This document shows, piece after piece, positions 411 to 49,108 of a stretch of 64,000 bases of DNA. Position numbers and translations under genes: made by a program. A model generated the notes under the pieces. The model had not been told where the DNA came from, made no database searches, and was given only the letters and a program-made list of their open reading frames with translations. Origin of the DNA: Spirosoma endbachense (GTDB lineage Bacteria > Bacteroidota > Bacteroidia > Cytophagales > Spirosomataceae); assembly GCF_010233585.1 (NCBI RefSeq), contig NZ_CP045997.1, forward strand, positions 9,164,114-9,228,113, written 5' to 3'. Numbering within the stretch: the stretch's first letter is position 1; each line of letters opens with the position of its first letter.

Positions 411-868
411 AAACTCTGGTAATGAGGGTGGAAATTAGTGAAATATCAACCGATATTGCAGATGGTCGGGCTATAGGAATCAGGCCGCAAAGTCAATGCT
501 TTTAGCCCAACAAACTCAGGGTGTAAAGGTTGACGTTACGTCCGTGGTTTTGATTGGTCTCATCATCCATCAACCCTCAGGGGTGTTGGGTGGATGGAAT
601 GACGAATAACGTAACGGCGGGCTTGCATACGACTGTTAGCTTAGCGAGGCTCCTGCTTTTCAACCCACTTATTAACTACATCTCACAAATCCCTCCTACT
701 TGAGACGAAAGGTGATTTGAGTATCTATAATTCGGGCGTATAATAATACAGATAATTCACAGTAGGTAGCCTGGGATTTTTTACCTAGGCTCACTTTCAA
801 GGGTTCAGAACATTAGGCGTTTATTATAGATGGTAATAGCTATATTAGTACAAAAGAGATTTACTACT
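411..868. other. Intergenic stretch with hairpin and first dispersed palindrome
   Basis: No convincing gene. It holds an imperfect hairpin at 564-596 (CATCCA/TGGATG plus CAAC/GTTG) nested inside a CGTTACG (534-540)/CGTAACG (610-616) pair, and the first copy of the dispersed palindromic element at 680-754. Confidence 0.6.
680..754 (+). repeat. Dispersed palindromic element, copy 1 (ATAATTCGGG subtype)
   Basis: Carries TCTCACAAATCCCTCC, then CTTGAGACGA, then ATAATTCGGGCGT. The 5' arm can pair with the 3' arm (CCCTCC with GGGCG, and outer ATCT with AGAT at 751-754). Same strand as all other copies. It shares the ATAATTCGGGCGT end with copies 6 and 7. Confidence 0.75.
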
Positions 869-3073
869 ATGTCCACTGTTTTTATTCATATCGGTCTAAT
901 TTTCTTCCTAATTAATTTTTCTATCCAAGCGCAAGATCTTAATCAGGGTCTGGTTCTCTATTACTCTCTAGATAAAGGTGTTGTTGACAGGAAGGTCAAT
1001 GACGATAGTAGAAATGGACTAGATGGTCAGGTAATAGGGTCTCCGATTTCTGTATATAATGGGCTTTTTTTGAATTGTGATGCCAGCCGACTTAATAACT
1101 GTAATAAAAGTGGTGGCGATTACATCCAAATGCCGACTTTAGGCCCTATTTGGCAACAGGGATTAACAGTTAGTGCTTGGGTCAAGTTTGGGCCCATTAA
1201 CAGGAATTTCGAACGGATTATTGAGATTGGTAATGGCGAAGGTGATAGCCAGAGTGATCCCACTGGCAAAAACTTCTTGTTTGGCAGGGACGGTACAACA
1301 AGTGATCTTCGGGTTGAAAATTGGCTTGATAAAGATCGAAGACATATAAGCTCACTGAATGTCAAACAGGGGGTATACGGCAATGAGTTGCACCATTATG
1401 CAGCCACAGTCTCACCTACGGGCGTTATCAGAATTTATATTGATGGTCGCAAGATGGAGGAGAATAGCAAGGATATTCACCCCATCCAGAATATTGAGCG
1501 TACAAAGAATTTTTGGGGAAAGTCGAATTGGTGTTATTTAGATCCTGATTTTCGTGGGTTATTTGATGAGTTACGATTGTACAATCGAGAGCTATCCGAA
1601 ACTGAAATGGCTGCTTTATACCAAATAAAACCCGAGAGCCTAAAAGCTAGCGTTATCATATCAAGCAACAACGGTTTATGTACGAATCGCTCCTTAACGG
1701 CAGAAGCCAATTTCACACTTCAGAAGCCTAAGTATACATGGTTTTTAGATGGCCGCCCACTCAGCGATACAACTGCCACAATTAAACCAATAACAACCGG
1801 AAAATACTCCGTTTTAATTACAGAAACGTCACCCTGTCATGATCTGGCTGCCCGCTCAGCTGAACAAATCGTAAATTTTCCATCATATAATCATTCTGTC
1901 ACAATTAGTAAGTGTAATCAGGCTTTACTGAAAGCTGGTGCAGGCGAAGGAAATATTAGCCACTGGATTGGTCCTGGTATTCTTCCTTCCAAAGGTCGCC
2001 AGGATACAATAACGGTAATTGGAAGTGGGAAAGTAGTCTATACGTTGCGCATTTATCCTTCACAGGCGGACACAAGTTGCTATGTCGAACGGCAAGTTGA
2101 CGTAAATTTCCCGATTGTCCCTACCTATATGTTTGTGCCAACGTCAACAACGGTTTGTCAGGATAGCCTTAAGCTAACACCACCGATTTCACAGGATTAC
2201 GATCAATATGTTTGGCTTCTCCCTACTGGAAAGTCTATTAATCAACGAGAAATCACGGCATCAATAAGTGGAAATTATACGCTTGTAGTTACCAATAGGC
2301 AAACTTTTTGTTCACAGAGTGTTGAGGTCTACGTTAGATTGCTTTCAAAACCGGTTGTAAACTTGGGCCCTGATACGTCAATCTGTCAAGGGGAACGCTT
2401 TTATCTTCGTCCAAATTTATTAGGCGCAATTTATCGCTGGCAGGATGGTTCACAGGGCAATGAGTTTCTAGTTACTAGTTCCGGTCAATACGCGGTTTTA
2501 GCATCATTATCAGGTTGTACTGGTAGTGATACGATTACAATAATAACTAGAGAGAGAGAGGTATTCGATTTAGGGCCTACCAAAGCAATATGCAGTGATA
2601 GTACGATAACATTAACAATCCCTCAACCAAGTTCTTCCAAGGCAGACTACGTCTGGTCAGACAATACGACATCTCCTACTTTATTGATCAAAAATGTCGG
2701 CCTTTACTGGCTACAATCAACCTTTAATAACTGTGTATTTAGAGACTCTGTTCTAGTTGTTGATGAGACGGATTGTGCAAGTGACTGGAAGATATTTGTA
2801 CCAGGGGCCTTTACACCAGATAGTCATCCCATGAATAATGTGTTCGAAATAAAAGGCAATTTATCTGGCTGTTCAATAACTATTTACAATCGGTGGGGTG
2901 CCATAATTTACTTAAACGAAACACTGGAGAATAGGCAATTTTGGGATGGTCGCTTTAAAGGGATTGATTGTCCACCGGATAATTATACATGGCAAATCGT
3001 TTGTCAAAATAAATTTTTGTCCAAGCAGATTAATCCTTTTATTAAAAATGGAACTGTTTTGTTGGTCCGATAA
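869..3073 (+). CDS. Secreted LamG-domain protein with gliding-motility type C-terminal sorting domain
   Basis: 734 residues from the ATG at 869. An in-frame ATG at 830 would add 13 residues before an otherwise typical signal peptide (hydrophobic core ending SIQAQ), so 869 is preferred. Residues ~20-240 form a LamG/concanavalin-like domain (start GLVLYYSLDKG, end FDELRLYNRELSETEM). Several Ig/PKD-like modules with the recurring LGPDTSICQGE-type motif follow. The last ~85 residues (FVPGAFTPDSHPMNNVFEIKG, IYNRWGAIIY, WDGRFKGIDCPPDNYTWQI) match the type-B T9SS sorting domain. Likely exported to the cell surface or medium by the type IX system; its ligand is unknown. Confidence 0.85.
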   Translation: MSTVFIHIGLIFFLINFSIQAQDLNQGLVLYYSLDKGVVDRKVNDDSRNGLDGQVIGSPISVYNGLFLNCDASRLNNCNKSGGDYIQMPTLGPIWQQGLTVSAWVKFGPINRNFERIIEIGNGEGDSQSDPTGKNFLFGRDGTTSDLRVENWLDKDRRHISSLNVKQGVYGNELHHYAATVSPTGVIRIYIDGRKMEENSKDIHPIQNIERTKNFWGKSNWCYLDPDFRGLFDELRLYNRELSETEMAALYQIKPESLKASVIISSNNGLCTNRSLTAEANFTLQKPKYTWFLDGRPLSDTTATIKPITTGKYSVLITETSPCHDLAARSAEQIVNFPSYNHSVTISKCNQALLKAGAGEGNISHWIGPGILPSKGRQDTITVIGSGKVVYTLRIYPSQADTSCYVERQVDVNFPIVPTYMFVPTSTTVCQDSLKLTPPISQDYDQYVWLLPTGKSINQREITASISGNYTLVVTNRQTFCSQSVEVYVRLLSKPVVNLGPDTSICQGERFYLRPNLLGAIYRWQDGSQGNEFLVTSSGQYAVLASLSGCTGSDTITIITREREVFDLGPTKAICSDSTITLTIPQPSSSKADYVWSDNTTSPTLLIKNVGLYWLQSTFNNCVFRDSVLVVDETDCASDWKIFVPGAFTPDSHPMNNVFEIKGNLSGCSITIYNRWGAIIYLNETLENRQFWDGRFKGIDCPPDNYTWQIVCQNKFLSKQINPFIKNGTVLLVR

Positions 3074-3197
3074 ATCGATTTCAGATACTATGCCTGCTAT
3101 AATTGTACGTCGTCAGCCAACAGTGGACAGATGTGAGTAGTCGCCGTTGAGGTGGGAATGGGAAGAGACAATTCACTCAATCTCACAATAACGCTCC

Positions 3198-3704
3198 TTA
3201 TTTTTTACTGTCACCATTGGCCGCTCGTGAGTCTATAACCGTGTTTTGGCCAGCTGAAAGCAACCACACCCCATTTCTCTTTACAAACACCAAAGTCAAT
3301 AAGTCATCTGCTTCGGGCATGCGATTAGTGCCGTGATTCACTCCGTCAGGTGGGAAAAACTCACCAACATGACAAATTAGATTAGCAACGGCCACTTCAG
3401 GGGTCAAAGAACGAATTTTTACGCTCTTTTTTGTAAAAGGTACACCTTTGAATATTGTGTCAAATATTCGTTGGTGAGCCGATTTTACTTCTGTTCTTCC
3501 TTTCCACCACATTCCAACAATATTTACCCATTCAACATCTTCTGTTGTATAAGTATCCATATTTTTGAAAGAGTGAGTATTCCAGTCTGAAACCAACTTA
3601 TCAACCTGATTTTCTATTGCTTTTTCATCGGTCTGTGCATGACCAATATGAGCTACGGCTACGCAGAGCAATAAAGAAAGCAGGGCTCTTTTTGAATTTT
3701 GCAT
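3198..3704 (-). CDS. Secreted NTF2-like (SgcJ/EcaC, DUF4440-type) protein
   Basis: 168 residues with an N-terminal signal peptide ending HIGHAQ. The rest is one alpha+beta NTF2/SnoaL-like cone: an opening helix (IENQVDKLVSDWNTHSFKNMDTYTTEDVEWVN), a central GRTEV segment, and closing strands (LLTLVFVKRNGVWLLSAGQNTV). Proteins of this fold bind small hydrophobic ligands or act as cyclases/isomerases; nothing here fixes an activity. It lies 28 bp downstream of a second NTF2-like gene on the same strand, so the two probably form an operon. Confidence 0.8.
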   Translation of the reverse strand: MQNSKRALLSLLLCVAVAHIGHAQTDEKAIENQVDKLVSDWNTHSFKNMDTYTTEDVEWVNIVGMWWKGRTEVKSAHQRIFDTIFKGVPFTKKSVKIRSLTPEVAVANLICHVGEFFPPDGVNHGTNRMPEADDLLTLVFVKRNGVWLLSAGQNTVIDSRAANGDSKK

Positions 3705-3732
3705 GATGTTATAAATGCAATAATGTTTTAAT

Positions 3733-4182
3733 CTATTGACTTACGTTAGTGGCTTGACGGGCTATTAATTGCCAGCTTCCATTACTATTCTGCCAAATAT
3801 TGGTAAATCGTCGTGGGCTAGTCACACTTTTAGGAACACCGGAAACAGCGCTTTTTTCATCGGGAATTTCTTGACCCATTTCAATTGCCAGATTCTGATT
3901 AATGGTGATTTTTTCGATGATTCGATCAAATCGAATTTGATTGATTTTGGCGTTTCTCATCAATACCTTGATTTCATTGAAGGAAACAATTTTATTAAAC
4001 GGATTCATCACCACATAGTTAGGTGACCATAACTTGGCTAAACTAGCGGTATCGTTCGATAAAAAAGCCGTAACCTCCAAGGCGCTCACTTTGCGAACAG
4101 CTGTCTCCTCAGCGGACTGAGCACAGGCTAAAAATGGGATCGATGTCACCAAAAAGACTAGAAGCAGGAAACGCATCTTCAT
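3733..4182 (-). CDS. Secreted NTF2-like (DUF4440-type) protein
   Basis: 149 residues when started at the ATG ending at 4182, which gives a clean signal peptide (MKMRFLLLVFLVTSIPFLACAQ). The frame is open to 4290, but those 36 extra residues precede the signal peptide and look untranslated. The mature part is a single NTF2-like domain (EVTAFLSNDTASLAKLWSPNYVVMNP near the start; RFTNIWQNSNGSWQLIARQATNV at the end). The Cys in FLACAQ could be a lipobox, though AQ after the Cys also fits signal peptidase I. First gene of a two-gene NTF2-like operon. Confidence 0.8.
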   Translation of the reverse strand: MKMRFLLLVFLVTSIPFLACAQSAEETAVRKVSALEVTAFLSNDTASLAKLWSPNYVVMNPFNKIVSFNEIKVLMRNAKINQIRFDRIIEKITINQNLAIEMGQEIPDEKSAVSGVPKSVTSPRRFTNIWQNSNGSWQLIARQATNVSQ

Positions 4183-4452
4183 GGTTAATGTCTGGTTTGT
4201 GAATATTGAATGCTGGAGATACATCTTACAGATTTTCAGTATGTTGGTAACGGTTTTCAGTAAATAAGTATATATATTTTTCCATTTCAAAGAATTTATC
4301 TACGAACTGATTAAGTGGTAGGTATTTTTACTGAGTAAGCCTATAATTATTCTGGCTTAGAGTAACAGGCTGCTTTTACCCTAAAGGTGGTTAGATAGGA
4401 TTCAACGGGACTTTGTTATGTTCAAAACAGATTACGAGTACATATTTTATAT

Positions 4453-4523
4453 TCTCAAAATACCCTCCTGCTTGAGACGAAGGAGCATTCATATATCTGT
4501 TTCAGAATTGGGGCGTTTTGAGT
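4453..4523 (+). repeat. Dispersed palindromic element, copy 2
   Basis: Starts TCTCAAAATACCCTCC and ends GGGGCGTTTTGAGT. The outer arms pair as CTCAAAA-C-CC with GG-G-TTTTGAG, a copy-specific match that keeps the stem although the bases differ from other copies. Inner stem TTGA/TTCA. Centre TTGAGACGAAGGAGCATTC. Confidence 0.85.
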
Positions 4524-4634
4524 TTATAGTAAAGTGATGTACAATGGCAATAGCATGAAGCTTGTCATGCTATCGCAAAAGAGATTTCGTTGCTAGTAAG
4601 TGTCAGATTTACCGAATGAGACAAAAAATACGTA

Positions 4635-4675
4635 ACTAGTATTGGCTAACGATCAGTCATTTAGTCAATACTAGG
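4635..4675. repeat. Imperfect hairpin
   Basis: CTAGTATTG at 4636-4644 is the exact reverse complement of CAATACTAG at 4666-4674, with a further CT/AG pair after one mismatch. No T tract follows, so it is not an obvious terminator. Confidence 0.6.
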
Positions 4676-4986
4676 TTGGGTGGGCACCAAAAAGCAGTAC
4701 GTGAGTGCTAGCGTTTCGGCGACAAACTCAATACCCCGGTTAGGAAAATTCAGTCTTCCATTTACAGGTTGTAGTTGACCGAGCAAATGCCCCGATTAGT
4801 CAGGTCTAGGCTTGAGGAGCAGCGTCCGTGTGACATGGTAGCCGCTAAGCCAGTCAAGGACGCCGAATACTATAGCACAGCAAAATACGGCAGTCAATCG
4901 GCTAGCTACCCGTCATGTTTACACACACGAAGCCATCAACATACTTAATGGGCTTTTTATAAAATAATAAAAATAAAAGAAGCCAT

Positions 4987-5469
4987 ATGAAAACTATAGT
5001 GTATAAAGCCGGGATTACAGTTGACTTCCTGAGGGAGGGCAGGGATACCAACGATGAGTATTGCGAATTCCGTTGTTCGATCAAGCCCTCAAGCCGAGTT
5101 CCTATGCCCCATTATCATCAGGGGTTCGAGGAAATAGTATACGGGGAAAAAGGCATTGTTAGCTGGACGGTAAATGGCAAAACGACCGACATTGGTCCGG
5201 GTGAAAAGCTTGTTATTCCTGTGGGGGCTATCCATATGTTTGAAAATAAATCCAATGAAACGGTTGAATTTCTCTGCCGCACCACACCGGGGAATGCATT
5301 TGGATCTGACTATTTTGAAGACATCGCTACAGTATTGAATGCGGACGGGCTTCCGGATTTTAACAAACTACAGGACATTATGAAGCAGTATGGCTTGATC
5401 CCTGTAGTGGGTTTAAAACGCAGGTTGATTTTTGCCATCATTAATCTGATTAGAAAAATCAAATCCTGA
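4987..5469 (+). CDS. Cupin-domain protein
   Basis: 160 residues, no signal peptide, cytoplasmic. Residues ~35-105 hold the cupin fold: metal-binding motif 1 (PMPHYHQGFEEIVYGEKG, with two His and a Glu) and motif 2 (PGEKLVIPVGAIHMFEN). The last 60 residues are a basic helical tail (LKRRLIFAIINLIRKIKS). Cupins of this small type are dioxygenases, isomerases or ligand-binding proteins; the substrate is not evident. It is the only gene between palindromic elements 2 and 3, so it forms a one-gene unit. Confidence 0.85.
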   Translation: MKTIVYKAGITVDFLREGRDTNDEYCEFRCSIKPSSRVPMPHYHQGFEEIVYGEKGIVSWTVNGKTTDIGPGEKLVIPVGAIHMFENKSNETVEFLCRTTPGNAFGSDYFEDIATVLNADGLPDFNKLQDIMKQYGLIPVVGLKRRLIFAIINLIRKIKS

Positions 5470-5584
5470 CTCGTTTACCACTGCTGGTAGCATCGTATTG
5501 CCCAAAGGGGGGCTTGACCCTATTGATTCAGCAGCCTAACAAAACAGGAGTGTACAAACTGGAAATTGTAGACCTTTTAACTTT

Positions 5585-5660
5585 GTCTCAAAAATTGCTC
5601 CTTCCTGAGACAAAGGAACTTTCATTTTTATGCTTCAGGAAATGGGGCGTTGAATGAGAC
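5585..5660 (+). repeat. Dispersed palindromic element, copy 3
   Basis: 5' arm GTCTCAAAAATTGCTCC pairs with 3' arm GGGGCGTTGAATGAGAC: the ends GTCTCA/TGAGAC match exactly and GCTCC pairs with GGGGC. The inner stem TTCCTGA/TCAGGAA is a 7-bp match that differs in sequence from the TTGA/TCAA stem of other copies (compensatory change). This copy shows the fold most clearly. Confidence 0.88.
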
Positions 5661-5669
5661 CGCTTTTTG

Positions 5670-8941: not shown

Positions 8942-9244
8942 GGCCGTAAGCGTTTAAACGTGAAAAAAAGTAGTTGTTGTTGCGATTGGTTGCACTTCAC
9001 GAGTTGTGACCAGGTTAACACGCTAGTTAGGTATCTACCCGCTAAGGAATGTCCCGGCAATTGATCCAGCTGACTAAACTCTTCTACACCATTGCTCTTG
9101 TGCATCAGTGGAGCCGAGCGTTTGCCCTCTATTCATTTACTTGGGTAGCTTTTCTGGATGAATGTGCCTTATTCTCCTCATTTGGATTGCAAATAGATTG
9201 CCAACGTCCTAAAAGCTATTTTAATGAAATAGAACATGGTTATC

Positions 9245-9305
9245 GTGGTGGACGGGTGTCCGCTTGTGGACACCTACTGTACATAGGCGGACACCCCTCC
9301 ACCAC
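9245..9305. promoter_or_regulatory. Nested inverted repeat with TGTCCG-N-TGGACA core
   Basis: A 19-nt arm at 9245-9263 matches the reverse complement of 9287-9305 at 18 of 19 positions. Inside it, TGTCCGCTTGTGGACA (9257-9272) forms an alternative small palindrome, so two mutually exclusive hairpins are possible. The same 16-mer occurs with two changes at 48008-48023 upstream of an ABC permease. It looks like a regulator-binding site or a structured RNA switch; its target is unknown. Confidence 0.6.
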
Positions 9306-9672: not shown

Positions 9673-9747
9673 ATCTCAAATAACCCTCCTAGTTGAGACG
9701 ATAGAATCTTCATATATCTGCTTCAAGAAATGGGCGTTTAAAGAGAT
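9673..9747 (+). repeat. Dispersed palindromic element, copy 4
   Basis: 5' arm ATCTCAAATAACCCTCC, 3' arm GGGCGTTTAAAGAGAT (ATCTC pairs with GAGAT). Complementarity continues outward: GTCAC (9664-9668) pairs with GTGAC (9749-9753). Inner stem TTGA/TCAA around CGATAGAATCTTCATATATC. Confidence 0.88.
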
Positions 9748-11425: not shown

Positions 11426-11500
11426 ATCTCACAAATCCCTCCTACTTGAAACGATAGAATCTTCATGCGTCCGCGCCAAGAAATGGGCGTTTTATGAAGC
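11426..11500 (+). repeat. Dispersed palindromic element, copy 5
   Basis: 5' arm TCTCACAAATCCCTCC, 3' arm GGGCGTTTTATGAAG, whose reverse complement (CTTCATAAAACGCCC) follows the 5' arm base by base with few mismatches. Inner stem CTTG/CAAG. Here TTGAGACGA is changed to TTGAAACGA. Confidence 0.85.
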
Positions 11501-15193: not shown

Positions 15194-15767
15194 CTTTCAA
15201 CAATTAGCAGGTCAGCTACTAAAGGTAGCATTTTAAGTGAGATGACAAAGATCGATGACTTCCTGTAACCAAGCACTCCGGGTTTACCAGTAAAATGCCT
15301 CATGGAAAACCCTGATTTCTAAGTATTAGTAGCCAATGATGTTACAATCTCCTAAAACGCTCCCTACTGAGACGAGAAGCGATTTACGTATCGATAATTC
15401 GGGCGTTTGGCAAGACGAGAATAGGATCCGTTGAAGTCATGACGAACATAAGTGGCACAAGATTATCCTGGAAGGACGCCCAAAAGGACCAACTGCATAC
15501 AGGCCTAATCAGGCCGTTGGATAGCCACTACGGCGACAACTCAACGACCTAGTCAGGTTTCACCCAACGACAAAACCAGCGCACAACCCTACTGAATGGT
15601 CAGAATGCTCAGGGGCAGCTAACCGATCCGACTAGCGCTAGGTTTAGGCGGGATGGCTGAGTCAACAAAATCACTCGGCCGGCTGATTGACACGAACCGT
15701 GTAAATACCTAACTTCGGCGCTAAGGCTCGTTTAGTCAACGCGTTGCGTAAACAAGACTTCATCATC
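15194..15767. other. Gene-free stretch with element copy 6
   Basis: Holds dispersed element copy 6 (15347-15420). The ~330 bp after it up to the repeat-protein start carry no convincing gene or strong hairpin. Confidence 0.55.
15347..15420 (+). repeat. Dispersed palindromic element, copy 6 (ATAATTCGGG subtype)
   Basis: 5' arm ATCTCCTAAAACGCTCCC, 3' arm CGGGCGTTTGGCAAGACGAGA. AACGC-CCC pairs with GGGCGTT with one bulged T. GAGACGA occurs centrally (15369) and GACGAGA again at the 3' end (15414). Shares ATAATTCGGGCGT with copies 1 and 7. Confidence 0.85.
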
Positions 15768-18700
15768 ATGAAATTCCACATCACGCACCGACTCCTGGGG
15801 CTGTGCGTCTTACTGACGGTCAACCTGATCGATCCACCGCTACTGGCTCAGACCATCCGCTACGTCAAACCCACCGCATCCGGCTCCGCCAATGGCTCCT
15901 CCTGGGCCAATGCCTCCGCCAGCTTGCAGGCCATCATCAACGCCAGTGCTTCGGGTGATCAGGTGTGGGTAGCGGGTGGAACCTACAAACCCACCAGTAC
16001 CACCGACCGCACGGTGAGTTTTGCCATGAAAAACGGGGTAGCCATCTACGGCGGGTTTGCAGGCACCGAAACCGCCCTGAGCCAGCGGCCCCCCATCAAC
16101 CCCGTAGGTGGGCCCGGCGTGGTATCGCAGCCCTCCACCACTACGTTATCAGGGGATATTGACAACGACGGCACATGGGCCAACAACAGCTACCACGTTA
16201 TCAGCAACCCGGCCAGCCTGAGCCTGACTCCCACCGCCCTGCTCGATGGCGTTGTTGTCAGCGGGGGCAATGCGAATGGGACTGCCTCAAATAACAGGGG
16301 CGGAGGAATCCATAATGATGGCAGCGGCAACACCTGCCAGCCCACCTTCCAAAACTGCACCTTTCAGACCAACGTAGCCACCTACGGCGGTGCCCTGTTC
16401 AACTATGGGTCTCTAGGCAGCAGCAGCCCCCTGCTGACCAACTGCGCCTTGTTCAGCAACTCGGCTGCCTACGGTGGGGCCATGTATAACTATGGAGATC
16501 GGGGCAGCAGTAGCCCTCAACTGACCAACTGCGTCTTTCAGAGTAACTCGGCCACCTCCGGCGGGGCACTTTTCAATTTTGGGTTATATAATGGTAGCAG
16601 TAGCCCTCAACTGACCAACTGCGTCTTTCAGAGTAACTCAGCCACCACCGGCGGGGCGATAGGCAACGATGCTGAAAATAATGGCAGCAGTAGCCCTCAA
16701 CTAACCAACTGCGTCTTTCAGAGTAACTCAGCCACCGCCGGCGGGGCAATGGAAAACTATGGAACAAGTACTGGCATCAGTAACCCTCAACTAACCAACT
16801 GCGTCTTTCAGAGTAACTCAGCCACCTCTGGCGGCGGGGCCATATACAACGTTAACCGTCAGGGAACCAGTAGCTCTCAACTGACCAACTGCTCTTTCCA
16901 GAGTAATTCAGCCAATAACGGCGGGGCCATGTATAACGAAAGTAATTATGGGACCACTAACCCTCAACTGACCAACTGCTCGTTCCAAAGCAACTCGGCC
17001 ACCACCTCCGGCGGGGCGATGTACAACTATGGGGCAAATAGTGGCAGCAGTAGTCCCCTGCTGACCAACTCGGTGCTGTGGAACAATGGGGGCAGTAACT
17101 CGATTGTTAATTTCTATGGGGCGTTGGTGGCTCGCTACAGCCTCTTCGACAACACCGTTACGGGCTATAGCGGCTCCGATAATCTCACGACCACCGTCTC
17201 TCCGTTTGTGTCGGCTACTTCCGTAGCCCTGTATGCCTGCTCGCCCGCCATCAACGCCGGCAACCCGACCAGTGTCACAACGAGCAGTCCCCCGTACTCC
17301 GAAACGGCCCTGCCCGCCACCGACCTGATGGGCGGTCCGCGTATTGTGGGCGGACGCGTGGACATGGGCGCGGTGGAGTTTACCGGCATCGTGTCACCTG
17401 TGTTATATGTAACGCCGGCGGGGAATGGGTTGCGGAACGGCAGTAGCTGGGCCAACGCTTACGTAGGAGCGGCCCTCCAGATAGCCATTGATCAGGCTCC
17501 GGGTTGTCAGGCTCAGGTTTGGGTAGCGGGCGGCACCTACAAACCCACCAGCATCACCACCGACCGCAGCGTCAGCTTCACGATGCGGAACGGGGTGGGC
17601 ATCTATGGCGGGTTTGCAGGCACCGAAACCGCCCTGAGCCAGCGGCCCCCCATCAACCCCGTAGCGGAACCCGGCATGGTAGGGCAGCCCTCCTCGACGA
17701 CCCTGTCGGGGGATATTGACAACGACGGAACGCGGACCAACAACAGCTACCATGTCATCAGCAACCCGGCCAGCCTCAGCCTGACCCCCACCGCCCTGCT
17801 CGATGGTGTAGTCATCAGCGGGGGCAATGCCAATGGGAGTTCCCCCCATGACAGTGGTGGCGGAGGGGTTTACAACGGGGGCAGTGGGAGCGGCAACACC
17901 TGCCAGCCCTCCTTCCGAAACTGCACCTTTCAGACCAACTCGGCCAGCTTCGGCGGAGCTGTCTATAACGATGGTTCACTTTCGGGCAGCAGTAGCCCCC
18001 TACTGACCAATTGCGCTTTGGTGAGTAACTCGGCCACTACTGGCGGGGCGATGTATAACGATGGTTCATTTTCGGGCAGCAGTAATCTGGTCCTAACCAA
18101 CTGCTCATTCCAAAGTAACTCGGCCACCTCCGGTGGGGCAATGGTCAATAATGGGGAGCGGGGCAGCAGTAGTCCTGGGCTAACCAACTGCTCGCTTCAA
18201 GGCAACTCGGCCACCAATGGCGGGGGGGCAATGGTCAATTATGGAGACCGGGGCAGCAGTAGCCCCTTGCTAACCAACTCGGTACTGTGGAACAATGGGG
18301 GCAGCAGCGCGATTGTCAATTTCTCTGGGTCGATGGTGGTGGCCCGGTATAGTTTGTTCGATGCCAGCGTGACGGGTTACACCAGCGTCACCGGCAACCT
18401 GACCACCACCACCACCCCCTTTGCCAGCACCGCCACCACCCGGCTACGGACCGGCTCGCCGGCCATCAACACGGCCGACCCCTCCACCACTACCGCAACG
18501 GTTGGTCGTACCGATTTGGCGGGCCTGCCACGCGTTGTGGGTAGGCTGGATATGGGGCCGCTGGAGTTTCAGGACGAGCTGTTTACGGTCAAACCCGGCC
18601 CCTGGAACGATCCGACCGTTTGGAACGTGAACCGTCTGCCCCAACCTGGCGACCGGGCGCGGCTCAAACACGCCATTACGATTCCTGGGAGTTATCCGGC

Positions 18701-18779
18701 GTTTGTGACTTTGTTGCTTTACGATCAGGCCGGCCGATTGCTTTATAACGCTGGCGGGCGGCTGCAGTTGGTGCAGTGA
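15768..18779 (+). CDS. Secreted beta-helix repeat surface protein (polymorphic OMP-like)
   Basis: 1003 residues from the ATG at 15768, the start of a signal peptide ending LLAQT (a TTG at 15744 would lengthen it). Two large halves repeat each other (~20-535 and ~540-930): each begins GSSWANA...QVWVAGGTYKPTS and AIYGGFAGTETALSQRPP, a choice-of-anchor/POMP-like opening, then runs of a ~30-residue beta-helix unit (SSPQLTNCVFQSNSATSGGAM). The C-terminus has FTVKPGPWNDPTVWNVNRLPQPGD and ends LLLYDQAGRLLYNAGGRLQLVQ, which resembles a shortened T9SS type-A sorting domain. Probably an adhesin or matrix-binding surface protein. Confidence 0.85.
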   Translation: MKFHITHRLLGLCVLLTVNLIDPPLLAQTIRYVKPTASGSANGSSWANASASLQAIINASASGDQVWVAGGTYKPTSTTDRTVSFAMKNGVAIYGGFAGTETALSQRPPINPVGGPGVVSQPSTTTLSGDIDNDGTWANNSYHVISNPASLSLTPTALLDGVVVSGGNANGTASNNRGGGIHNDGSGNTCQPTFQNCTFQTNVATYGGALFNYGSLGSSSPLLTNCALFSNSAAYGGAMYNYGDRGSSSPQLTNCVFQSNSATSGGALFNFGLYNGSSSPQLTNCVFQSNSATTGGAIGNDAENNGSSSPQLTNCVFQSNSATAGGAMENYGTSTGISNPQLTNCVFQSNSATSGGGAIYNVNRQGTSSSQLTNCSFQSNSANNGGAMYNESNYGTTNPQLTNCSFQSNSATTSGGAMYNYGANSGSSSPLLTNSVLWNNGGSNSIVNFYGALVARYSLFDNTVTGYSGSDNLTTTVSPFVSATSVALYACSPAINAGNPTSVTTSSPPYSETALPATDLMGGPRIVGGRVDMGAVEFTGIVSPVLYVTPAGNGLRNGSSWANAYVGAALQIAIDQAPGCQAQVWVAGGTYKPTSITTDRSVSFTMRNGVGIYGGFAGTETALSQRPPINPVAEPGMVGQPSSTTLSGDIDNDGTRTNNSYHVISNPASLSLTPTALLDGVVISGGNANGSSPHDSGGGGVYNGGSGSGNTCQPSFRNCTFQTNSASFGGAVYNDGSLSGSSSPLLTNCALVSNSATTGGAMYNDGSFSGSSNLVLTNCSFQSNSATSGGAMVNNGERGSSSPGLTNCSLQGNSATNGGGAMVNYGDRGSSSPLLTNSVLWNNGGSSAIVNFSGSMVVARYSLFDASVTGYTSVTGNLTTTTTPFASTATTRLRTGSPAINTADPSTTTATVGRTDLAGLPRVVGRLDMGPLEFQDELFTVKPGPWNDPTVWNVNRLPQPGDRARLKHAITIPGSYPAFVTLLLYDQAGRLLYNAGGRLQLVQ
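16414..17090 (+). repeat. Coding tandem repeats, first block
   Basis: Seven or so units of about 87-105 bp, each carrying GGCAGCAGTAGCCCTCAACT then GACCAACTGCGTCTTTCAGAG and GGCGGGGC. Neighbouring units are nearly identical at DNA level, while their 3' thirds (the MYNYG-type part) vary. Unit length changes keep the reading frame, so copy number can change without breaking the gene. Confidence 0.85.
17983..18290 (+). repeat. Coding tandem repeats, second block
   Basis: A shorter block of the same unit (three to four copies) in the second half of the beta-helix gene, again with GGCAGCAGTAG and AACTCGGCCAC cores. The 5' parts of the two halves (from 15955 and 17515) are also close duplicates, so the gene arose by internal duplication. 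Confidence 0.8.
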
Positions 18780-18977: not shown

Positions 18978-19472
18978 AAAGGCACTGAAATCTCCAGATT
19001 TTGTAGGACAGTTATTAAAATCACTGTCTCCTGAAACGCTCCCGGATTGATACCAAGAAACCTTCAGGGATCGCTTGGTAGATAAACCTTCAGGTTTCTC
19101 GGCATTGAGCCCAGCTACGTCCAGCGTCTTAACCGGACTTAGCTTAATGTCATACCAGGCATCAATAAGCTCTTGTTTCAGCAGGACTTTAGATAGATAC
19201 CCTGAACAACTAATCAGTACTAAATCAGTGTCTGCGACCGATGACAGGTCCATCTCAAAGTTACCAGTTGAGTCTACCTGGACGCGAATAGGTTTGTCTT
19301 TTACCCAAAGACTAGCCTCGGGTAATGGTTTATAAGTCAGGTTATCACCTATTTGTCCATGGAAGGTCTGAGCAACGGAGAGCCTAGCGAGCAGCAACAA
19401 ACTAGCCAATAGGACACCTTTAACGAATAGCATACGAATAGTAATTAGGGGAATAAGTAGAATTGTCTTCAT
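18894..19472 (-). CDS. Secreted carboxypeptidase-regulatory-like domain protein
   Basis: 192 residues from the Met at 19472 (MKTILLIP); the frame is open to 19505 and a later Met precedes the hydrophobic core, so the start is uncertain. Signal peptide ends LSVAQT. Residues ~35-115 are a CarboxypepD_reg-like beta-sandwich (FHGQIGDNLTYKPLPEASLWVKDK, VDSTGNFEMDLSSVADTDLVLISCSGYLSK). The last ~25 residues (ILEWSSDAGSTTGGVNRSSD) begin exactly at the edge of the 22-bp inverted repeat and may be one of two alternative C-termini. Confidence 0.7.
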   Translation of the reverse strand: MKTILLIPLITIRMLFVKGVLLASLLLLARLSVAQTFHGQIGDNLTYKPLPEASLWVKDKPIRVQVDSTGNFEMDLSSVADTDLVLISCSGYLSKVLLKQELIDAWYDIKLSPVKTLDVAGLNAEKPEGLSTKRSLKVSWYQSGSVSGDSDFNNCPTKSGDFSAFGSEPLWVILEWSSDAGSTTGGVNRSSD

Positions 19473-21327: not shown

Positions 21328-21390
21328 CGTTTCAAAATACCCCACTAGGTGTGACGAAGGAGTATCAATAATTCGGGCGTTTAACGAGAT
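21328..21390 (+). repeat. Dispersed palindromic element, copy 7 (short, ATAATTCGGG subtype)
   Basis: CGTTTCAAAATACCCC, then GTGTGACGAAGGAG, then ATAATTCGGGCGTTTAACGAGAT. The 3' arm GGGCGTTTAACGAGAT is the consensus form. The middle part is about 12 bp shorter than in the other copies. Confidence 0.8.
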
Positions 21391-26480: not shown

Positions 26481-26561
26481 GTGCAATCTCAGAAAATGCT
26501 CCCAACTGAGACGAAGGAGCGTTCTTGTGTCAACCTCATAAATGGGGCGTTGCTGTTGCAC
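26481..26561 (+). repeat. Dispersed palindromic element, copy 8
   Basis: 5' arm GTGCAATCTCAGAAAATGCTCCC, 3' arm GGGGCGTTGCTGTTGCAC. AATGCTCC pairs with GGGGCGTT over eight positions (two G-T), and GTGCAA pairs with TTGCAC outside. Inner stem TGAG/CTCA. The 3' tail CTGTTGCACAAC (26553-26564) also matches the IS1182-type end at 50813-50824, so part of the outer pairing may be due to an IS scar. Confidence 0.82.
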
Positions 26562-38146: not shown

Positions 38147-38255
38147 TAGAGGATAGTAAATTCCTTTACTAGCTGGCGTAACAACACCCTTGTAAGCCGC
38201 TCATTAGGCACCTTCACGATTCTTTAGACTGTACTTTACCCTTGATTTTATAAAT

Positions 38256-38329
38256 TCTCACAAATCCCTCCCACTTGAGACGAAGAAGTATTCATGTATC
38301 TGCTTTATAAACTGGGCATAGATAGAGAT
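38256..38329 (+). repeat. Dispersed palindromic element, copy 9
   Basis: TCTCACAAATCCCTCCC, CACTTGAGACGAAGAAG, TTCATGTATCTGCTT, then GGGCATAGATAGAGAT. The outer TCTC/GAGA pairing and CCC/GGG are kept; GCGTT has changed to GCATA. Confidence 0.82.
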
Positions 38330-38467: not shown

Positions 38468-38469
38468 CT

Positions 38470-39798: not shown

Positions 39799-39802
39799 GG
39801 TA

Positions 39803-42477: not shown

Positions 42478-42561
42478 ATAACATGATTGTTTACTTGCGA
42501 GTTAGTCGTTAAAGCCAGAGAACAGAGTAACAGAAACTACTTAAATAGTGCTTATTTTACT

Positions 42562-44210: not shown

Positions 44211-44449
44211 GGGCGTTTTTCACGACATGGATTGAGGAGACCAAATTGCTTTTGATGGCCCCACTCGATAGAATATTTGCAGAGAGTAGTAGCCCCTAGC
44301 GGTTGAGTCATGCCTTACTAGTATATATTCGTTGCAAAAAATACCTACCGATCTATTGAGAACCAACGTTTAATGTAGCATCTTACCCTCTTTTAGCCCG
44401 TGCGTATAGATCTCTCCTTACGCGCTAATTTTACTCACTACCCCAACGT

Positions 44450-45688: not shown

Positions 45689-45729
45689 AATCCTCACGAC
45701 TGCTGGCCTATCAAAGCCGAACTAACAAA

Positions 45730-45758
45730 TTCTCAAAATAGGCTCGAATTGAGCTACC
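45730..45758 (+). repeat. Dispersed palindromic element, copy 11 (partial)
   Basis: TTCTCAAAATAGGCTCGAATTGAGCTACC keeps TCTCA, GCTC and TTGAG in the usual order and orientation, 43 bp after the MFS stop. No GGGGCGTT arm follows. Confidence 0.5.
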
Positions 45759-45936
45759 TTGCTTTTTCGACAACGATTAGTCTGGTCAATAATTATATGC
45801 CACTCATATGCCGTAGAAAGGCAGTCGTCAAGCTTATTTTGAAAAATCTTTGGAGTCCCTAGCTTTGCGGAAAACGTTAACTGAGTCCTGTTAGGCACAT
45901 TCACTACGTTTGTAAACGTATTTCTAAATAGTTCAA

Positions 45937-46725
45937 ATGAAAAATTTCATATCGCTACTTACGTTATTGATTTGTATTCATTTCTCCCATGCACAGGATT
46001 TCAGTGCCTATAAAAAAGCGCTTTTTATCCAAGGTAAAGACACGTTGCGTTACAGAATATTACATCCTGAAAGTTATGACCCCGCAAAGTCATACCCTTT
46101 GGTCGTTTTCCTGCATGGGGCAGGCGCAAGAGGAAATGATAATGAACGTCAATTCATCGATGGCGGTAGTTTGTTTTTACATGATTCGGTCCGGAAAAAA
46201 TTTCCTGCTCTGGTAGTTTTGCCGCAATGTCCTGCGGACAGCATGTGGTTCAAAATTCCTCCGGGGCCGCCTTACGATACAACAGCAGCCTTTAACCATA
46301 AGATGAACACCCTGGCACTTTCAACACCAGAACGGATGGTCAAACTTTTAATGGACAGTTTAGCGGAACATAAAATTGCAGACAGAAAAAGAATTTATCT
46401 GGGCGGCACTTCACTTGGCGCCTTTGGCACTTACGATTTGATCATCCATTATCCCGGTTATTTTGCGGCTGCTTTTCCTATATGTGGGCAGGCTAACGTA
46501 GAGCTGTATCCTAAAAGAGCAGCCCATGTTCCGGTGTGGATTTTTCACGGTGCGATTGATGACGTTATTAATCCCTGGCCAGATAGGAGCCTGATAAAAG
46601 CGTTACAACAAAGCGGTGCAAAAAATGCGAAATACACAGAATATCCAGGCTTAAAACATGATATTACGGGCAACGTATTTGCCGAACCAGATTTGCTGCC
46701 GTGGTTATTTTCATTTAAAAAATGA
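45937..46725 (+). CDS. Secreted prolyl-oligopeptidase-like/phospholipase-like esterase
   Basis: 262 residues with signal peptide ending FSHAQD. PLVVFLHGAGARGNDNERQFIDGG (oxyanion region), nucleophile elbow YLGGTSLGAFGTYDL (Ser), acid in HGAIDDVINPWPD, His in PGLKHDITGNVF. This is the predicted-peptidase/dienelactone-hydrolase-like group common in Bacteroidota polysaccharide loci. It is the only gene between partial copies 11 and 12 of the element. Confidence 0.9.
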   Translation: MKNFISLLTLLICIHFSHAQDFSAYKKALFIQGKDTLRYRILHPESYDPAKSYPLVVFLHGAGARGNDNERQFIDGGSLFLHDSVRKKFPALVVLPQCPADSMWFKIPPGPPYDTTAAFNHKMNTLALSTPERMVKLLMDSLAEHKIADRKRIYLGGTSLGAFGTYDLIIHYPGYFAAAFPICGQANVELYPKRAAHVPVWIFHGAIDDVINPWPDRSLIKALQQSGAKNAKYTEYPGLKHDITGNVFAEPDLLPWLFSFKK

Positions 46726-46776
46726 AGTTCGGTAATAGGCTTACACCTGAGCCAACTATTAGTGGCTTAAAACTAT

Positions 46777-46792
46777 TCTCAAAAAAAGCTCC
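46777..46792 (+). repeat. Dispersed palindromic element, copy 12 (doubtful, 5' arm only)
   Basis: TCTCAAAAAAAGCTCC matches the 5' arm. A later TGAGACGACGG...GGGGCGCAC (46845-46876) resembles the rest of the element after a ~50-bp insertion, but that part also reads as the start of a Tat-signal protein, so only the 5' arm is claimed. Confidence 0.4.
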
Positions 46793-46843
46793 ATTTAGGA
46801 AGCAGTTAAAAAAGAACTCCATCAACTCAAATGGGAGCCTAGC

Positions 46844-46982
46844 ATGAGACGACGGGAATTTCTTAAACGGGGCGCACTTTAACCTTTACACCCTCATTGG
46901 GTTGGGCTGTTCGCCTGACCTACAAGCGTGCTCTCTGTCGCCCGACAACACACCTTGTAAAGCTAATATCAATAATGACCTG
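46844..46982 (+). pseudogene. Broken start of an exported (Tat-signal) protein gene
   Basis: ATG at 46844 gives MRRREFLKRGAL, a textbook twin-arginine signal start, then a stop. In the +1 frame the sequence continues NLYTLIGLGCSPDLQACSLSPDNTP, with a GLGC lipobox-like motif. A single-base frameshift would join them. The gene is then cut off at 46983 by the 126-bp mobile fragment. Family not identifiable from so short a piece. Confidence 0.5.
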
Positions 46983-47108
46983 CAGGGCTTTCTTATAAAA
47001 CCAGTTCTTGATTCATGAACTGAATCAATGTTAGGAATTTGTCGGCAAAGTCTTCTAGTTGAGCAACCATATTTTTGGGCTTTTTTCGCCCTAACAAGTT
47101 GATAACCA
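46983..47108 (-). mobile_element. Transposase-end fragment, inverted copy of 2-127
   Basis: Exact inverted copy of window positions 2-127, coding on the minus strand for the same tail (VINLLGRKKPKN...). Upstream of the match the frame is closed by a stop, so this is a fragment, not a complete IS. Confidence 0.75.
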
Positions 47109-47109
47109 C

Positions 47110-47224
47110 CAATCATTTTGCCTTGAAAGGGCGGTTATACCTCAAAGCCCTGCAAGCGGCTTTTGCGGAACTGGCCGTCCTCAAAAATCAACTCAGCCAA
47201 CATCCACAAATGGAGTTGGCGTAA
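47110..47224 (+). pseudogene. Second transposase-like C-terminal fragment
   Basis: Plus-strand frame TNHFALKGRLYLKALQAAFAELAVLKNQLSQHPQMELA ends at the stop 47222-47224. The long amphipathic helix resembles the tail of a transposase. It directly abuts the truncated ABC permease gene and the inverted 126-bp fragment, so it probably marks the insertion that destroyed the permease gene. Confidence 0.4.
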
Positions 47225-47226
47225 CA

Positions 47227-47835
47227 TCAGTTATAATTTTGACTGGCAATCACACCCGTGATTGTATAGTGGCCCCATTCGGTTGGGGCCACTTCTTTCC
47301 GGTTGCCTCCCAGGTAGTGCAGTCCCCGGTCAAAATAGCGAACTGTTTTACCGATTGGATTTTGAGAACCAAATAAGGTCTGAGCAACCTTGTCGGTAAT
47401 TATCATGGAATTCGGCTCATGAAGGGCCGTCCTTTTATCGCCTTTCGTCAAGTCAAAACTGAATACCTCGAAAAAGGAAGGATCTGAAAAAAAACCGCGA
47501 ATCTCCGCGGTTTTACGATTATAGATGGCATCTCCTCCAACCCCTCTCACCAACCTTGTAGCCTGTTCTACAATGGGATAGTGGTTCTTCAACTCCGCAG
47601 CCAGGGGAATCGGTGAGGTTGCATTGGGGAAGGGCGAGTTGGCGTCATCTGAAAGAAGGCGGTAAATCCGCTCCTTCTGCTGGTTAAATTGATCATACTC
47701 CTTCTGGTCGGCTAGCATCAACACGATTAACAGGCCGACAGACAGGGCTAATGCCAGGCCTAAAACATTGATCAGTGAAAACACTTTGTATTTAAGGATA
47801 TTCCTGATCGCTACGGTTAGATAATTTCCAAGCAT
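47227..47835 (-). pseudogene. N-terminal fragment of a MacB/FtsX-type ABC transporter permease
   Basis: 202 residues. MLGNYLTVAIRNILKYKVFSLINVLGLALALSVGLLIVLMLADQKEYDQF is the first transmembrane helix and start of the MacB periplasmic core domain; GGDAIYNRKTAEIRGFFSDPSFFEVFSFDLTKGDKRTALHEPNSMIITDKVAQTLFGSQNPIGKT continues it. Full-length members have about 780-800 residues with four helices; this one stops after GHYTITGVIASQNYN, next to transposase remnants. The upstream palindromes show that the regulatory region is still in place. Confidence 0.85.
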
Positions 47836-47911
47836 AAAAAGAGCGTTTATGAGCGAGATAGATGGGGGATCCTTACCAAAAAACGTTCAAGCTACCCAGG
47901 TTTAAGCGCCC

Positions 47912-47963
47912 TTATAGTATAGGGCAAACTTGGTAAGTACAAACAGTTTGCCATATACTATAA
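47912..47963. promoter_or_regulatory. Long inverted repeat upstream of the permease fragment
   Basis: 19-nt arms 47912-47930 and 47945-47963 match at 18 of 19 positions (TTATAGTATA-GGCAAACT type) with a 14-nt loop, 77 bp upstream of the permease start. Either a regulator site or a structured leader. Confidence 0.65.
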
Positions 47964-48007
47964 ATGGCTGAAATTCAGCCTATTTATATAGAAATTCACC
48001 TATCATG

Positions 48008-48035
48008 TGTCCGATTATGGACATCCTATGTCCGA
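48008..48035. promoter_or_regulatory. TGTCCG-N4-TGGACA palindrome plus extra half-site
   Basis: TGTCCGATTATGGACA (48008-48023) followed by TATGTCCGAT. It is nearly the same 16-mer as 9257-9272. Such palindromes upstream of MacB-type permease genes fit an NtrC-class activator site (inference); no clear sigma-54 promoter could be placed. Confidence 0.5.
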
Positions 48036-48105
48036 TTTAGAGCAGCCTTCCCTGTTCTCTAAATTTCGCACTTGTCACAAGGCTCACGATCGTAGTGCTG
48101 GAACT

Positions 48106-48180
48106 GTCGCAGGAAACCCTCCTATTCGAGACGGTTGAATCTTCATGACTCTGCTTCAAGAAATGGGCGTTCGGCGAGAC
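48106..48180 (+). repeat. Dispersed palindromic element, copy 13
   Basis: 5' arm GTCGCAGGAAACCCTCC, 3' arm GGGCGTTCGGCGAGAC: GTC/GAC ends and CCC/GGG pair, and the extra GC in GTCGC faces CGGCGAGAC. Centre TTCGAGACGG, then CTTCATGACTCTGCTTCAAG, close to copies 4 and 5. Confidence 0.85.
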
Positions 48181-48201
48181 AAGGTCCTATTCCAAAAGTC
48201 T

Positions 48202-48636
48202 TTAGAACACAGATATCTGTTGTAGCTCACTGGCTAAGTCATGAATCGCTGTTTGAATTTTATTGGCTTGGGCTTGGGACGCCCGTTTATTGCCTGACAC
48301 ATATTGTTGCAAAAGGTTGGGATTGATACCAGCTCTTGCAGCGATTGCCGATATTTTCAGCTCTTGGTAAAGCTCGAAGAAGGCCGCTAAATTATACTCA
48401 CATTGAAATTCGAAATCGTCAACTTGGCGGTCTTGCCAAGGCGATGCTTGTTTGCCTTCATGCGCTAAATAATCCGCAAGCAAGTTTTTTAGCTTAACCA
48501 AAATAGTTGGTACGGAGTCCGATTGGGTTGTAAATAAAAAGCTATCGGATTTAAGTTGTGCTACAAATTCCTTATGGCCCCATTCGATTCGGACAGGTAA
48601 GCAAATTTTTTGTGCTACGCTATTCATACCCACCAT
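48202..48636 (-). CDS. hicB: HicB-like antitoxin with C-terminal HTH
   Basis: 144 residues (an internal Met at residue 4 is an alternative start). The N-terminal ~75 residues form the partly degraded RNase-H-like HicB fold (LPVRIEWGHKEFVAQLKSDSFLFTTQSDSVPTILVKLKNLL). The C-terminus has an HTH (ISAIAARAGINPNLLQQYVSGNKRASQAQANKIQTAIHDLASEL) for operator binding. Its start directly abuts the HicA stop (48637), so the two are co-transcribed. It would neutralise HicA and repress the operon. Confidence 0.82.
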   Translation of the reverse strand: MVGMNSVAQKICLPVRIEWGHKEFVAQLKSDSFLFTTQSDSVPTILVKLKNLLADYLAHEGKQASPWQDRQVDDFEFQCEYNLAAFFELYQELKISAIAARAGINPNLLQQYVSGNKRASQAQANKIQTAIHDLASELQQISVF

Positions 48637-48888
48637 TTAGCTAAAAAGACGTTGCCAGGCATTCCATATAGTTCTTGGATTGAAGGCGACTTTATGAACC
48701 CTCGCTTTAAGACCTGCCGTTTGAAAAATGTCATTGAGCAGTTCGACTTTGAGCGGCTGTTCTCCTAAGTTGGGAATAGATATTAGCTTACTATGGCTAG
48801 AGTGGCTGAAAAGGAAATCACCTTCAACTTGTCTAATCTGTTGCCATCCGGCCTTTTCCAGCATTATAATCAGCATTGATGTTTTCAT
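48637..48888 (-). CDS. hicA: HicA-like toxin
   Basis: 83 residues from the Met at 48888 (MKTSMLIIMLEKAGWQQIRQVEGDFLFSHSSHSKLISIPNL), preferred over the upstream Met at 48912. The dsRNA-binding-like HicA fold is seen: LEKAGWQQIRQ, the His-containing FSHSSHSK strand in place of the usual GSHhif, ISIPNLGEQPLKVELLNDIFQTAGL. HicA proteins cleave mRNA on ribosomes. The catalytic His environment is altered compared with the textbook GSH motif, so activity is uncertain. First gene of the pair. Confidence 0.8.
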   Translation of the reverse strand: MKTSMLIIMLEKAGWQQIRQVEGDFLFSHSSHSKLISIPNLGEQPLKVELLNDIFQTAGLKARVHKVAFNPRTIWNAWQRLFS

Positions 48889-48913
48889 ATCGACGAAATG
48901 TTTACGCGACAAA

Positions 48914-48964
48914 GGTAATATTTTTATTACCCTACAAATCGGTTTGGGTAATTTTTTTATTACC
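48914..48964. promoter_or_regulatory. Two tandem palindromic operators for HicAB
   Basis: GGTAAT-N6-ATTACC occurs at 48914-48931 and again at 48947-48964, centres 33 bp apart (three helical turns), 26 bp upstream of the HicA start. Ideal sites for the HTH of HicB. Confidence 0.8.
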
Positions 48965-49045
48965 TAATTTTGTCGGCAACCAATTGGCATTCCGAATGGG
49001 TATTGCAGAGATTTAACTACGAGGGCAGAGGGAGGATGAACTTCA

Positions 49046-49108
49046 ATCTCATAAAATGCTCCCAAATGAGACGATGCAAGCTTCATGAATTCATTCGGGT
49101 TTTATGTG
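49046..49108 (+). repeat. Dispersed palindromic element, copy 14
   Basis: ATCTCATAAAATGCTCCC, CAAATGAGACGATGCAAGC, then CGGGTTTTATGTGAC. TCATAAAA faces TTTTATGTGA, so the pairing is kept although GCGTT is changed to GGTTTTAT. Inner stem AATGA/TCATT, again a compensated change. Last copy seen; none from 49.1 to 64 kb. Confidence 0.8.

Follow-up and report, generated by a model that had tools for sequence, protein, structure and literature searches.

We analysed a 64,000-nt stretch of the Spirosoma endbachense chromosome (hereafter the window; positions 9164114-9228113 of the host assembly, a single 10.33-Mb contig), in which a first-pass annotation had recorded a family of short palindromic elements between genes. 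Reading each element as a recombination junction, and not as an RNA or a terminator, is well supported by genome comparison. Gene blocks and the 53-nt bodies of the elements are exchangeable separately. As far as the sequences document it, the elements contain the sites and two breakpoints, blocks recur between arrays and species, and a longer head site occupies a recognizable position. Probably, these parts belong to an integron-like and dif-module-like system of paired inverted junctions and a head site, which a Cre-like enzyme may serve mostly in trans.

We propose that each element consists of two inversely oriented site-specific recombination junctions flanking a body of 53 nt (or 40-48 nt). 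The left site would read RTCTCAnnAAA-nSCTCC-YnnnTGAGACG, and the right site, on the other strand, RTCTCAnnAAA-CGCCCn-ATTTnnTGAAGC. Below, coordinates of up to five digits refer to the window and longer ones to the host genome; G and L numbers denote genomes and loci.

Exchange of blocks and bodies at two breakpoints

Among 198 unique copies from several species, we found, at the score limits used, 17 pairs that share only their upstream flank, 7 that share only the downstream flank and 1 that shares both. The first mismatch in the upstream-only pairs lies 3-7 nt from the core start, directly past CTCC in 8 of the 17. Examples of one-sided sharing in the host genome have 101-400 nt in common; in the pair 5863515/5865656 the likeness extends over ~350 nt as far as CTCC and is lost beyond it. 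Further upstream-sharing pairs are 4327548/9151025, 7818394/10245573, 9169696/9241054 and 7830542/9260714, and the pairs 1524299/3037065, 2995386/4369157 and 3001918/10248416 are alike from CTCC on and different upstream. Two of the window copies show switching between species, 11426 against a locus of S. profusum and 38256 against one of S. utsteinense.

The second breakpoint is the right end of the body, GGGCGTT, ~50 nt to the right of CTCC. The copies at 4366109 and 7834765 carry identical bodies (53/53 nt) between unrelated flanks on either side, and a common right flank stands behind differing bodies in 4366109 and a G035 copy (L080) and in 9162969/9239898. The right-flank and inverted-sharing comparisons used 110 full elements. 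Fifteen pairs share the right flank, and five of these lose the match within GGGCGTT or 2 nt to its left; three of the five involve one same copy, and three of the 15 are copies of one compound element. Inverted exchange between a left and a right core was found in none of the 110 full elements. When match ends were taken without anchoring, the right ends of upstream matches fell at positions 0 to 29 in 23 of 48 cases and at 45 to 59 in 9, and the left ends of downstream matches at -20 to 9 in 32 of 47 and at 40 to 59 in 5, with the others scattered. Whole blocks recur as well (4358727-4359722 matches 9260779-9261772 at 93%), and body identity between copies has a median of ~70%.

The repeat family in the window, the host and the genus

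The eleven intergenic + strand copies listed by the first-pass annotation were confirmed by inspection and by a sequence-only model made from them (R1), which finds these eleven by construction. Its statements that neighbouring genes point both ways (between 600 and 49200, greedy choice gives 16 + and 22 - open reading frames (ORFs) of 100 aa or more) and that the elements come in two length subtypes (53-nt bodies, and bodies of 40-48 nt with the end ATAATTCGGGCGTT) also stand. That all copies lie on one strand is true of these eleven and fails for a weaker reversed copy at 46777-46851. In place of about five partial copies, R1 gives this one (-) and a weak match at 19024-19072 (+), with no further partial in the window at E≤1. 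The reported absence of copies after 49.1 kb applies within the window and ends beyond it, with weak matches from a window-equivalent 72.2 kb and a strong one at 75.8 kb; the array containing the window copies extends to genome 9.262 Mb. Each block between window elements comprises from one to nine ORFs (100 aa or longer), and both orientations occur. The features are as follows.

680-750, + strand: element, 48-nt body, core CTCC at 693, 55.2 bits; ~50 nt of upstream flank, and not the downstream side, in common with the copy at 5991850
4452-4526, + strand: element, 53-nt body, core CTCC at 4465, 71.1 bits
4666-5608, + strand: gene block with a cupin gene (4987-5469); 89.5% copy at 9240149-9241078 in the same array, both matches stopping ~10 nt beyond the next core
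5585-5660, + strand: element, 54-nt body, core CTCC at 5598; at least 300 nt upstream recur at 9241054, with divergence after the core
9673-9747, + strand: element, 53-nt body, core at 9686, 76.3 bits, the top R1 score in the genome; the body of a G031 copy (L081) is 94% identical and its flanks are unrelated
11426-11500, + strand: element, 53-nt body, core at 11439; 83 nt upstream, and not the downstream side, in common with an S. profusum locus (L115)
15347-15416, + strand: element, 48-nt body, core at 15360
19024-19072, + strand: weak or decayed element, 14.7 bits
21328-21389, + strand: element, 40-nt body, core CCAC at 21341, 39.9 bits
26484-26565, + strand: element, 53-nt body, core at 26499; right end continues into TGCTGTTGCACAACTC, resembling the insertion-sequence-like end seen at other elements
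38255-38329, + strand: element, 53-nt body, core at 38268; downstream side, and not the upstream side, in common with an S. utsteinense locus (L083)
46777-46851, - strand: reversed, weaker element, 19.4 bits
48106-48180, + strand: element, 53-nt body, core at 48119
49046-49112, + strand: element, 45-nt body, core at 49059

Positions 2-127 and 46983-47108, 47 kb apart, form a perfect inverted repeat of 126 nt. Its second copy sits just upstream of the sole reversed element, suggestive of a block copied in inverted orientation. The window also contains a 1011-aa ORF (15744-18779) made mostly of ~90-bp tandem repeats, beside the element at 15347, and a strong 28-bp hairpin (9245-9305; 86% complementary, 5-nt loop).

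At E≤1, R1 found at least 128 matches in the host chromosome. The count is a minimum, as are the other R1 copy numbers, because only the best candidates were scored (150 in the host, where the first look gave 2470, and 150 in two congeners and in the Larkinella and 'Flavobacterium' genomes described below). The matches beyond the 11 model sources are independent support for the family. The core pattern, at up to 5 substitutions, had 96 occurrences across 800 kb of array regions, against a single one when that sequence was reversed. We carried 122 of the 128 matches forward, leaving out five weak singles (2341557, 3912412, 7969963, 8420030 and 8605089; E 0.008-0.97) and the shadow of the 4366109 copy on the reverse strand. 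Clusters lie near 0.34, 1.52, 2.56, 2.99-3.05, 4.06-4.08, 4.32-4.37, 5.86-5.89, 6.29-6.30, 7.56, 7.82-7.86, 7.96-7.99, 9.15-9.26, 9.59-9.61 and 10.2-10.3 Mb. The copies are strongly clustered, with 104 of 121 gaps shorter than 25 kb (mean 31 and maximum 45 in 500 random placements), and 98 of these 104 close neighbours are on the same strand (mean 54 and maximum 71 in 2000 shuffles). Both orientations occur genome-wide (74 + and 48 -), yet each cluster is nearly uniform; splitting by strand gives 23 groups, 4 of them single copies. The fixed orientation that the first-pass annotation had described therefore applies within clusters. Of the unclustered copies in both orientations that it had named as an argument against such an element, we see the two orientations and not the lack of clustering. 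Its view that the elements are neither ordinary terminators nor miniature inverted-repeat transposable elements (MITEs) agrees with the one-way clusters and the flanks that switch at internal cores. A MITE or insertion sequence was rejected on the same grounds, the flanks being not unrelated on both sides. Two array regions (10245715-10247855 and 7987896-7988911) have a tandem repeat of 408-bp period in common.

The family is widespread in the genus. In a survey with stricter filters and 77 candidates scored per genome, where counts saturate near 77-80, R1 at E≤0.001 matched 30 of 35 other same-genus genomes and none of 23 genomes of other genera. Two congener genomes gave at least 124 and at least 107 matches at E≤0.01. 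G023, G035 and G011 are element-rich. The exact 20-base core pattern found 44 stretches in a named genome collection (40 Spirosoma, 3 Larkinella and 1 record labelled Flavobacterium), and three genomes reached through the Larkinella and 'Flavobacterium' loci had at least 3, 6 and 4 R1 matches at E≤0.05. The strict core pattern had no match in the viral contigs searched. In the open-access literature we found no title or abstract describing these elements in Spirosoma, which is not proof of absence.

The first-pass annotation had also seen arms that keep pairing through compensating changes, and had named a lack of covariation as the outcome that would argue against a conserved fold. That outcome is what we observed, with no covariation matching a helix and no unusual folding. 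Outer arms and their own partners paired at a mean of 3.19 of 5 positions (67 own pairs), and shifts of -3 to +2 gave 3.08-3.32; the pairing expected of integrons, between a left arm and the preceding site's right arm (shift -1), did no better than own or other shifts and was rejected. Across 39 ungapped copies with 53-nt bodies (two near-duplicates removed), the sole column pair above the 95% null level, 54/58, avoids complementary bases. The largest complementary excess, at columns 54/59 (five apart; z 3.9), is a lone pair below that level. RNAalifold predicted 5 pairs, none with two-sided change, and none of the 11 copies folded much better than its shuffles (z -1.64 to +0.93). The simplest account of the apparent compensating changes is that a few common arm variants occur in different combinations. 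The inverted arms seem more readily understood as protein-binding arms, belonging to two recombination sites that face in opposite directions at either end of the body. Inverted arms and an intergenic location would also suit a folded RNA or a regulatory repeat that rides along between genes. Given these results, the absence of any Rfam match in the window at gathering score and the switching of gene blocks at the element, we consider it extremely improbable, and a hairpin element was dropped on the Rfam, folding and covariation results.

Head sites and neighbouring recombinases

The head site is a ~140-nt longer relative of the element with the same half-site motifs and the same right end. 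It was found downstream of the recombinase genes at 1519564 and 7954747 as GTCTCACAAACTCAGCTTGAATGTGAGATTTTGCGTTTGATTGGTGAGACGGCATTTTGAGACT, which is dense in RTCTCA/TGAGAY. Four such motifs within 70 bp form 3 clusters in 800 kb, two of them at GTCTCACAAACTCAGCTTGAATGTGAGATTTTGCGTTTGATTGGTGAGACGGCATTTTGAGACT, and none in the reversed control. The site opens with the inverted pair TCTCACA..TGTGAGA, and at the orthologue loci of G005 and G034 it is kept in changed surroundings. We built a model (R2) from five sites, including those of G000, G005, G034 and G027, and scored the 123 best candidates per genome. At E≤0.001, R2 matched 29 of 39 genomes, including the host and 26 of 31 other same-genus genomes; two of the three genomes reached through the Larkinella and 'Flavobacterium' loci matched weakly, and none of four genomes from other genera did. 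The site was found, at up to 17 substitutions, in 32 of 38 regions fetched from the strongest and some weak R2 matches. L065 and L041 bring the set to 34, and L182 makes 35 for the survey of neighbouring genes. The element right end GGGCGTTTnnTGA, or a variant, lies ~60 nt past the conserved part in 31 of the 32 aligned sites (the exception is L235), and beyond GGGCGTTTnnTGA the loci diverge.

Elements are found mainly downstream of head sites. Within 8 kb of the 34 sites we counted 40 same-strand and 5 opposite-strand elements downstream, and 8 and 6 upstream; a same-strand element lies downstream of 22 of the sites and upstream of 6. The first block behind the S. spitsbergense head site, which includes a 700-aa histidine-kinase-like ORF (named by inspection), recurs inside arrays at host 4366109 and in G035. 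It matches the host over 843 bp at 79%, starting within ~20 nt of GGGCGTT, and G035 in pieces of 63-368 bp at 76-85%. Two G023 head sites have the same first cassette (96% over 2.6 kb).

The host genome encodes 13 PF00589 genes. Two of them, at 1519564 and 7954747 (354/327 aa), lie close to elements within a 1.6-kb duplicated stretch (95%), and their proteins are 97% alike. By sequence, the duplicated gene encodes a tyrosine recombinase whose nearest solved structure is Cre (E 2.4e-11). It has 703 relatives at E≤0.001; where the 120 listed carry an organism name, it is Spirosoma, Hymenobacter or 'Bacteroidota bacterium'. R174, K200, H275, R278, H301 and Y310 are invariant in 14 aligned homologues, and we take them to be the catalytic positions expected of a tyrosine recombinase. 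In the genomes searched, all 7 intact orthologues of at least 84% identity are followed by a head site on their own strand (117 nt-2.2 kb downstream). One G000 copy, G005 and G034 among these were sources of R2 and the second G000 copy is a near-twin; G031, G030 and G019 are independent, the last two being weak matches (28 and 23 bits). In a second lineage (~44% identity), the head site is divergently placed ~270-370 nt away at three loci, of which G027 is in R2 and G034 and G016 are independent, the G016 gene being broken.

Other features accompany some head sites. L221, L235 and L245 encode a DUF5712 protein of 345-348 aa whose reading frame ends ~190 nt before the site, and a ParA-like ORF (by inspection) lies nearby in L221 and L235; some head sites may be carried on plasmid-like backbones. 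A conserved 197-218-aa protein starting with MTPKQ or similar lies within 3.5 kb of 4 of the 35 sites:

L041, 2913-3506: MTPKQ-type protein
L065, 12972-13565: MTPKQ-type protein
L111, 6626-7282: MTPKQ-type protein
L217: MTPKQ-type protein

Of 20 occurrences of an insertion-sequence-like end, GGCTGTTGCACAACTC, 17 directly follow the CGT of an element or head-site core, as judged by eye (for example at 9602146 and 9598987 and in L214, L215, L217 and L244). The scan covered the array regions and fetched loci, and two of the 20 occurrences are one site. Left and right cores are hit, in both orientations, and the DNA behind GGCTGTTGCACAACTC is mostly unrelated. Insertion sequences thus seem to target these cores.

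Proposed mechanism and relation to known systems

In the system we propose, blocks and bodies would be inserted, removed or swapped by strand exchange at either core, CTCC on the left or GGGCG/TT on the right. The ~140-nt head site would be an attI-like array head and entry point for blocks, and the Cre-like tyrosine recombinase of the two duplicated genes would act on the arrays mostly in trans. From the comparisons we infer an 11-6-11 layout of the sites, the Cre-like enzyme and a core-mismatch rule for orientation. Tyrosine recombinases require matching overlaps. Because the cores differ (CTCC versus CCCn), left sites would join left and right sites right, each kind forming direct repeats along the array, so that blocks could be inserted and excised and would not be inverted. 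Such joining would keep arrays in one orientation and leave inverted exchange unseen, and the lack of inverted sharing among the full elements fits the rule. According to an excerpt of PMC13141974, the spacers of pdif sites are likewise identical or nearly identical. The one reversed window copy and the 6 of 104 neighbours on opposite strands mean that the rule has exceptions or that rearrangements of another kind occur.

Several observations weigh against this model. The right core was recognised in only 123 of the 198 copies, and exchange was read from genome comparison, not from excised circles or live exchange. Twelve of the 34 head sites have no same-strand element within 8 kb downstream. 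A Cre-like recombinase lies within 3.5 kb of only 8 of 35 head sites, with a serine recombinase near 5, DUF5712 near 3 and none of these near 19. The element-rich genomes G011, G009, G026 and G001 have no Cre-like recombinase at E≤1e-8, and genomes with close orthologues can be element-poor (at least 2 in G019, at least 7 in G030). Homologues of up to 58% identity have a head site within 3.5 kb at 3 of 19 places, and an intact 76% homologue in G061 has none by R2. A serine or another recombinase could be the enzyme. The Cre-like tyrosine recombinase is a likely candidate, at about an even chance or slightly better.

Exchange could in principle need no dedicated enzyme. RecA-dependent homologous recombination between dispersed repeats would be expected to produce repeat-repeat exchange through the conserved blocks of the copies, and some match ends do scatter outside both junctions. 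However, crossovers are concentrated at two points, many fall inside a 4-nt core with differing bases on both sides in bodies of ~70% median identity, and inverted sharing was absent from the full elements, so that we regard this route as very unlikely. Alternatively, block movement could be the work of XerC and XerD, on the model of dif modules in Acinetobacter plasmids. The 11-6-11 layout and the alternating, inversely oriented sites match these modules, in which C and D modules alternate (an excerpt of PMC13141974), and an XerC/D-like gene (~155-162 bits; named by score and length) was present in 13 of 13 genomes examined. Such genes also occur in the element-free genomes G008 and G017, however, and other recombinases adjoin the head sites. 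The only exact match to the dif pattern searched, TTGTTGTATAA-TTTATA-TTATGTTAAGT at 554527, is presumably dif-like; at 1-2 mismatches the pattern was no commoner than in the reversed control. Since the arms of this site are unlike RTCTCAnnAAA or YnnnTGAGACG, the XerC/XerD explanation is weakened, and we judge it unlikely.

The ends of attC sites resemble GGGCGTT. A divergent true integron, with an IntI integrase, attI and single-strand-folded attC sites, would explain the head site, the tandem sites in one orientation, the cassettes with varied genes and this right end of the element. A complete integron has also been reported in one Bacteroidetes, Salinibacter ruber, according to an excerpt on IntegronFinder 2.0. 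Yet in the host genome nothing exceeded the 265-bit cut-off of the integrase model TIGR02249 (best 78.8 bits, an XerC/D-like gene), conservation is of sequence and not of pairing, and breakpoints at both ends of the body let blocks and bodies move apart. This possibility is therefore also unlikely, slightly more so than XerC/XerD.

The proposed system shares features with three known ones; excerpts of PMC9024848 and PMC8618304 were also consulted. As in integrons, there is a head site, sites of the same orientation separate varied genes, cassettes recur in other arrays and species, and many arrays have no integrase nearby (as in CALIN arrays, where the integrase is missing). Unlike integrons, the host has no IntI-type integrase above the cut-off, sites are conserved as sequence rather than structure and have two breakpoints each, window blocks contain from one to nine ORFs, in both orientations, and a Cre-like recombinase stands beside some head sites. 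The pdif modules of Acinetobacter plasmids likewise have 11-6-11-like sites in inverse pairs and two alternating kinds of module; blocks and bodies here recur separately, and the alternating layout was seen by inspection. Insertion sequences target sites in both systems (relatives of IS1202 at pdif sites, in the abstract of PMC10132070). In contrast to dif modules, the Spirosoma arms differ from the host dif-like site, one module kind is a fixed ~53-nt body, and the sites form chromosomal clusters of up to 27 with a dedicated head site. Cre is known for dimer resolution at one lox site. The candidate resembles Cre in sequence and the head site opens with an inverted pair, but the Spirosoma system consists of cassette arrays, for which Cre is not known. 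Because the integrase model fails in the host, no fold is conserved and the arms are unlike dif, the system, on the tests made, would work like an integron and a dif module while being a member of neither.

Integrons are known cassette platforms, as are the dif modules of plasmids. If Bacteroidota have such a system, chromosomal, genus-wide and run by a different enzyme, this way of storing and reshuffling genes would have arisen more than once. More tentatively, at somewhat below an even chance, it is a separately evolved counterpart of the integron that combines a 140-nt head site and a recombinase of the Cre family with double sites, whose body would itself move as a module and could be joined to new genes, creating cassettes as well as shuffling them. 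How a gene gains its attC site is an open question in integron biology, and a site body swapped independently of genes bears on it. The elements also offer a new and apparently orientation-strict recombination site, and the system could explain part of the variation in gene content among Spirosoma genomes.

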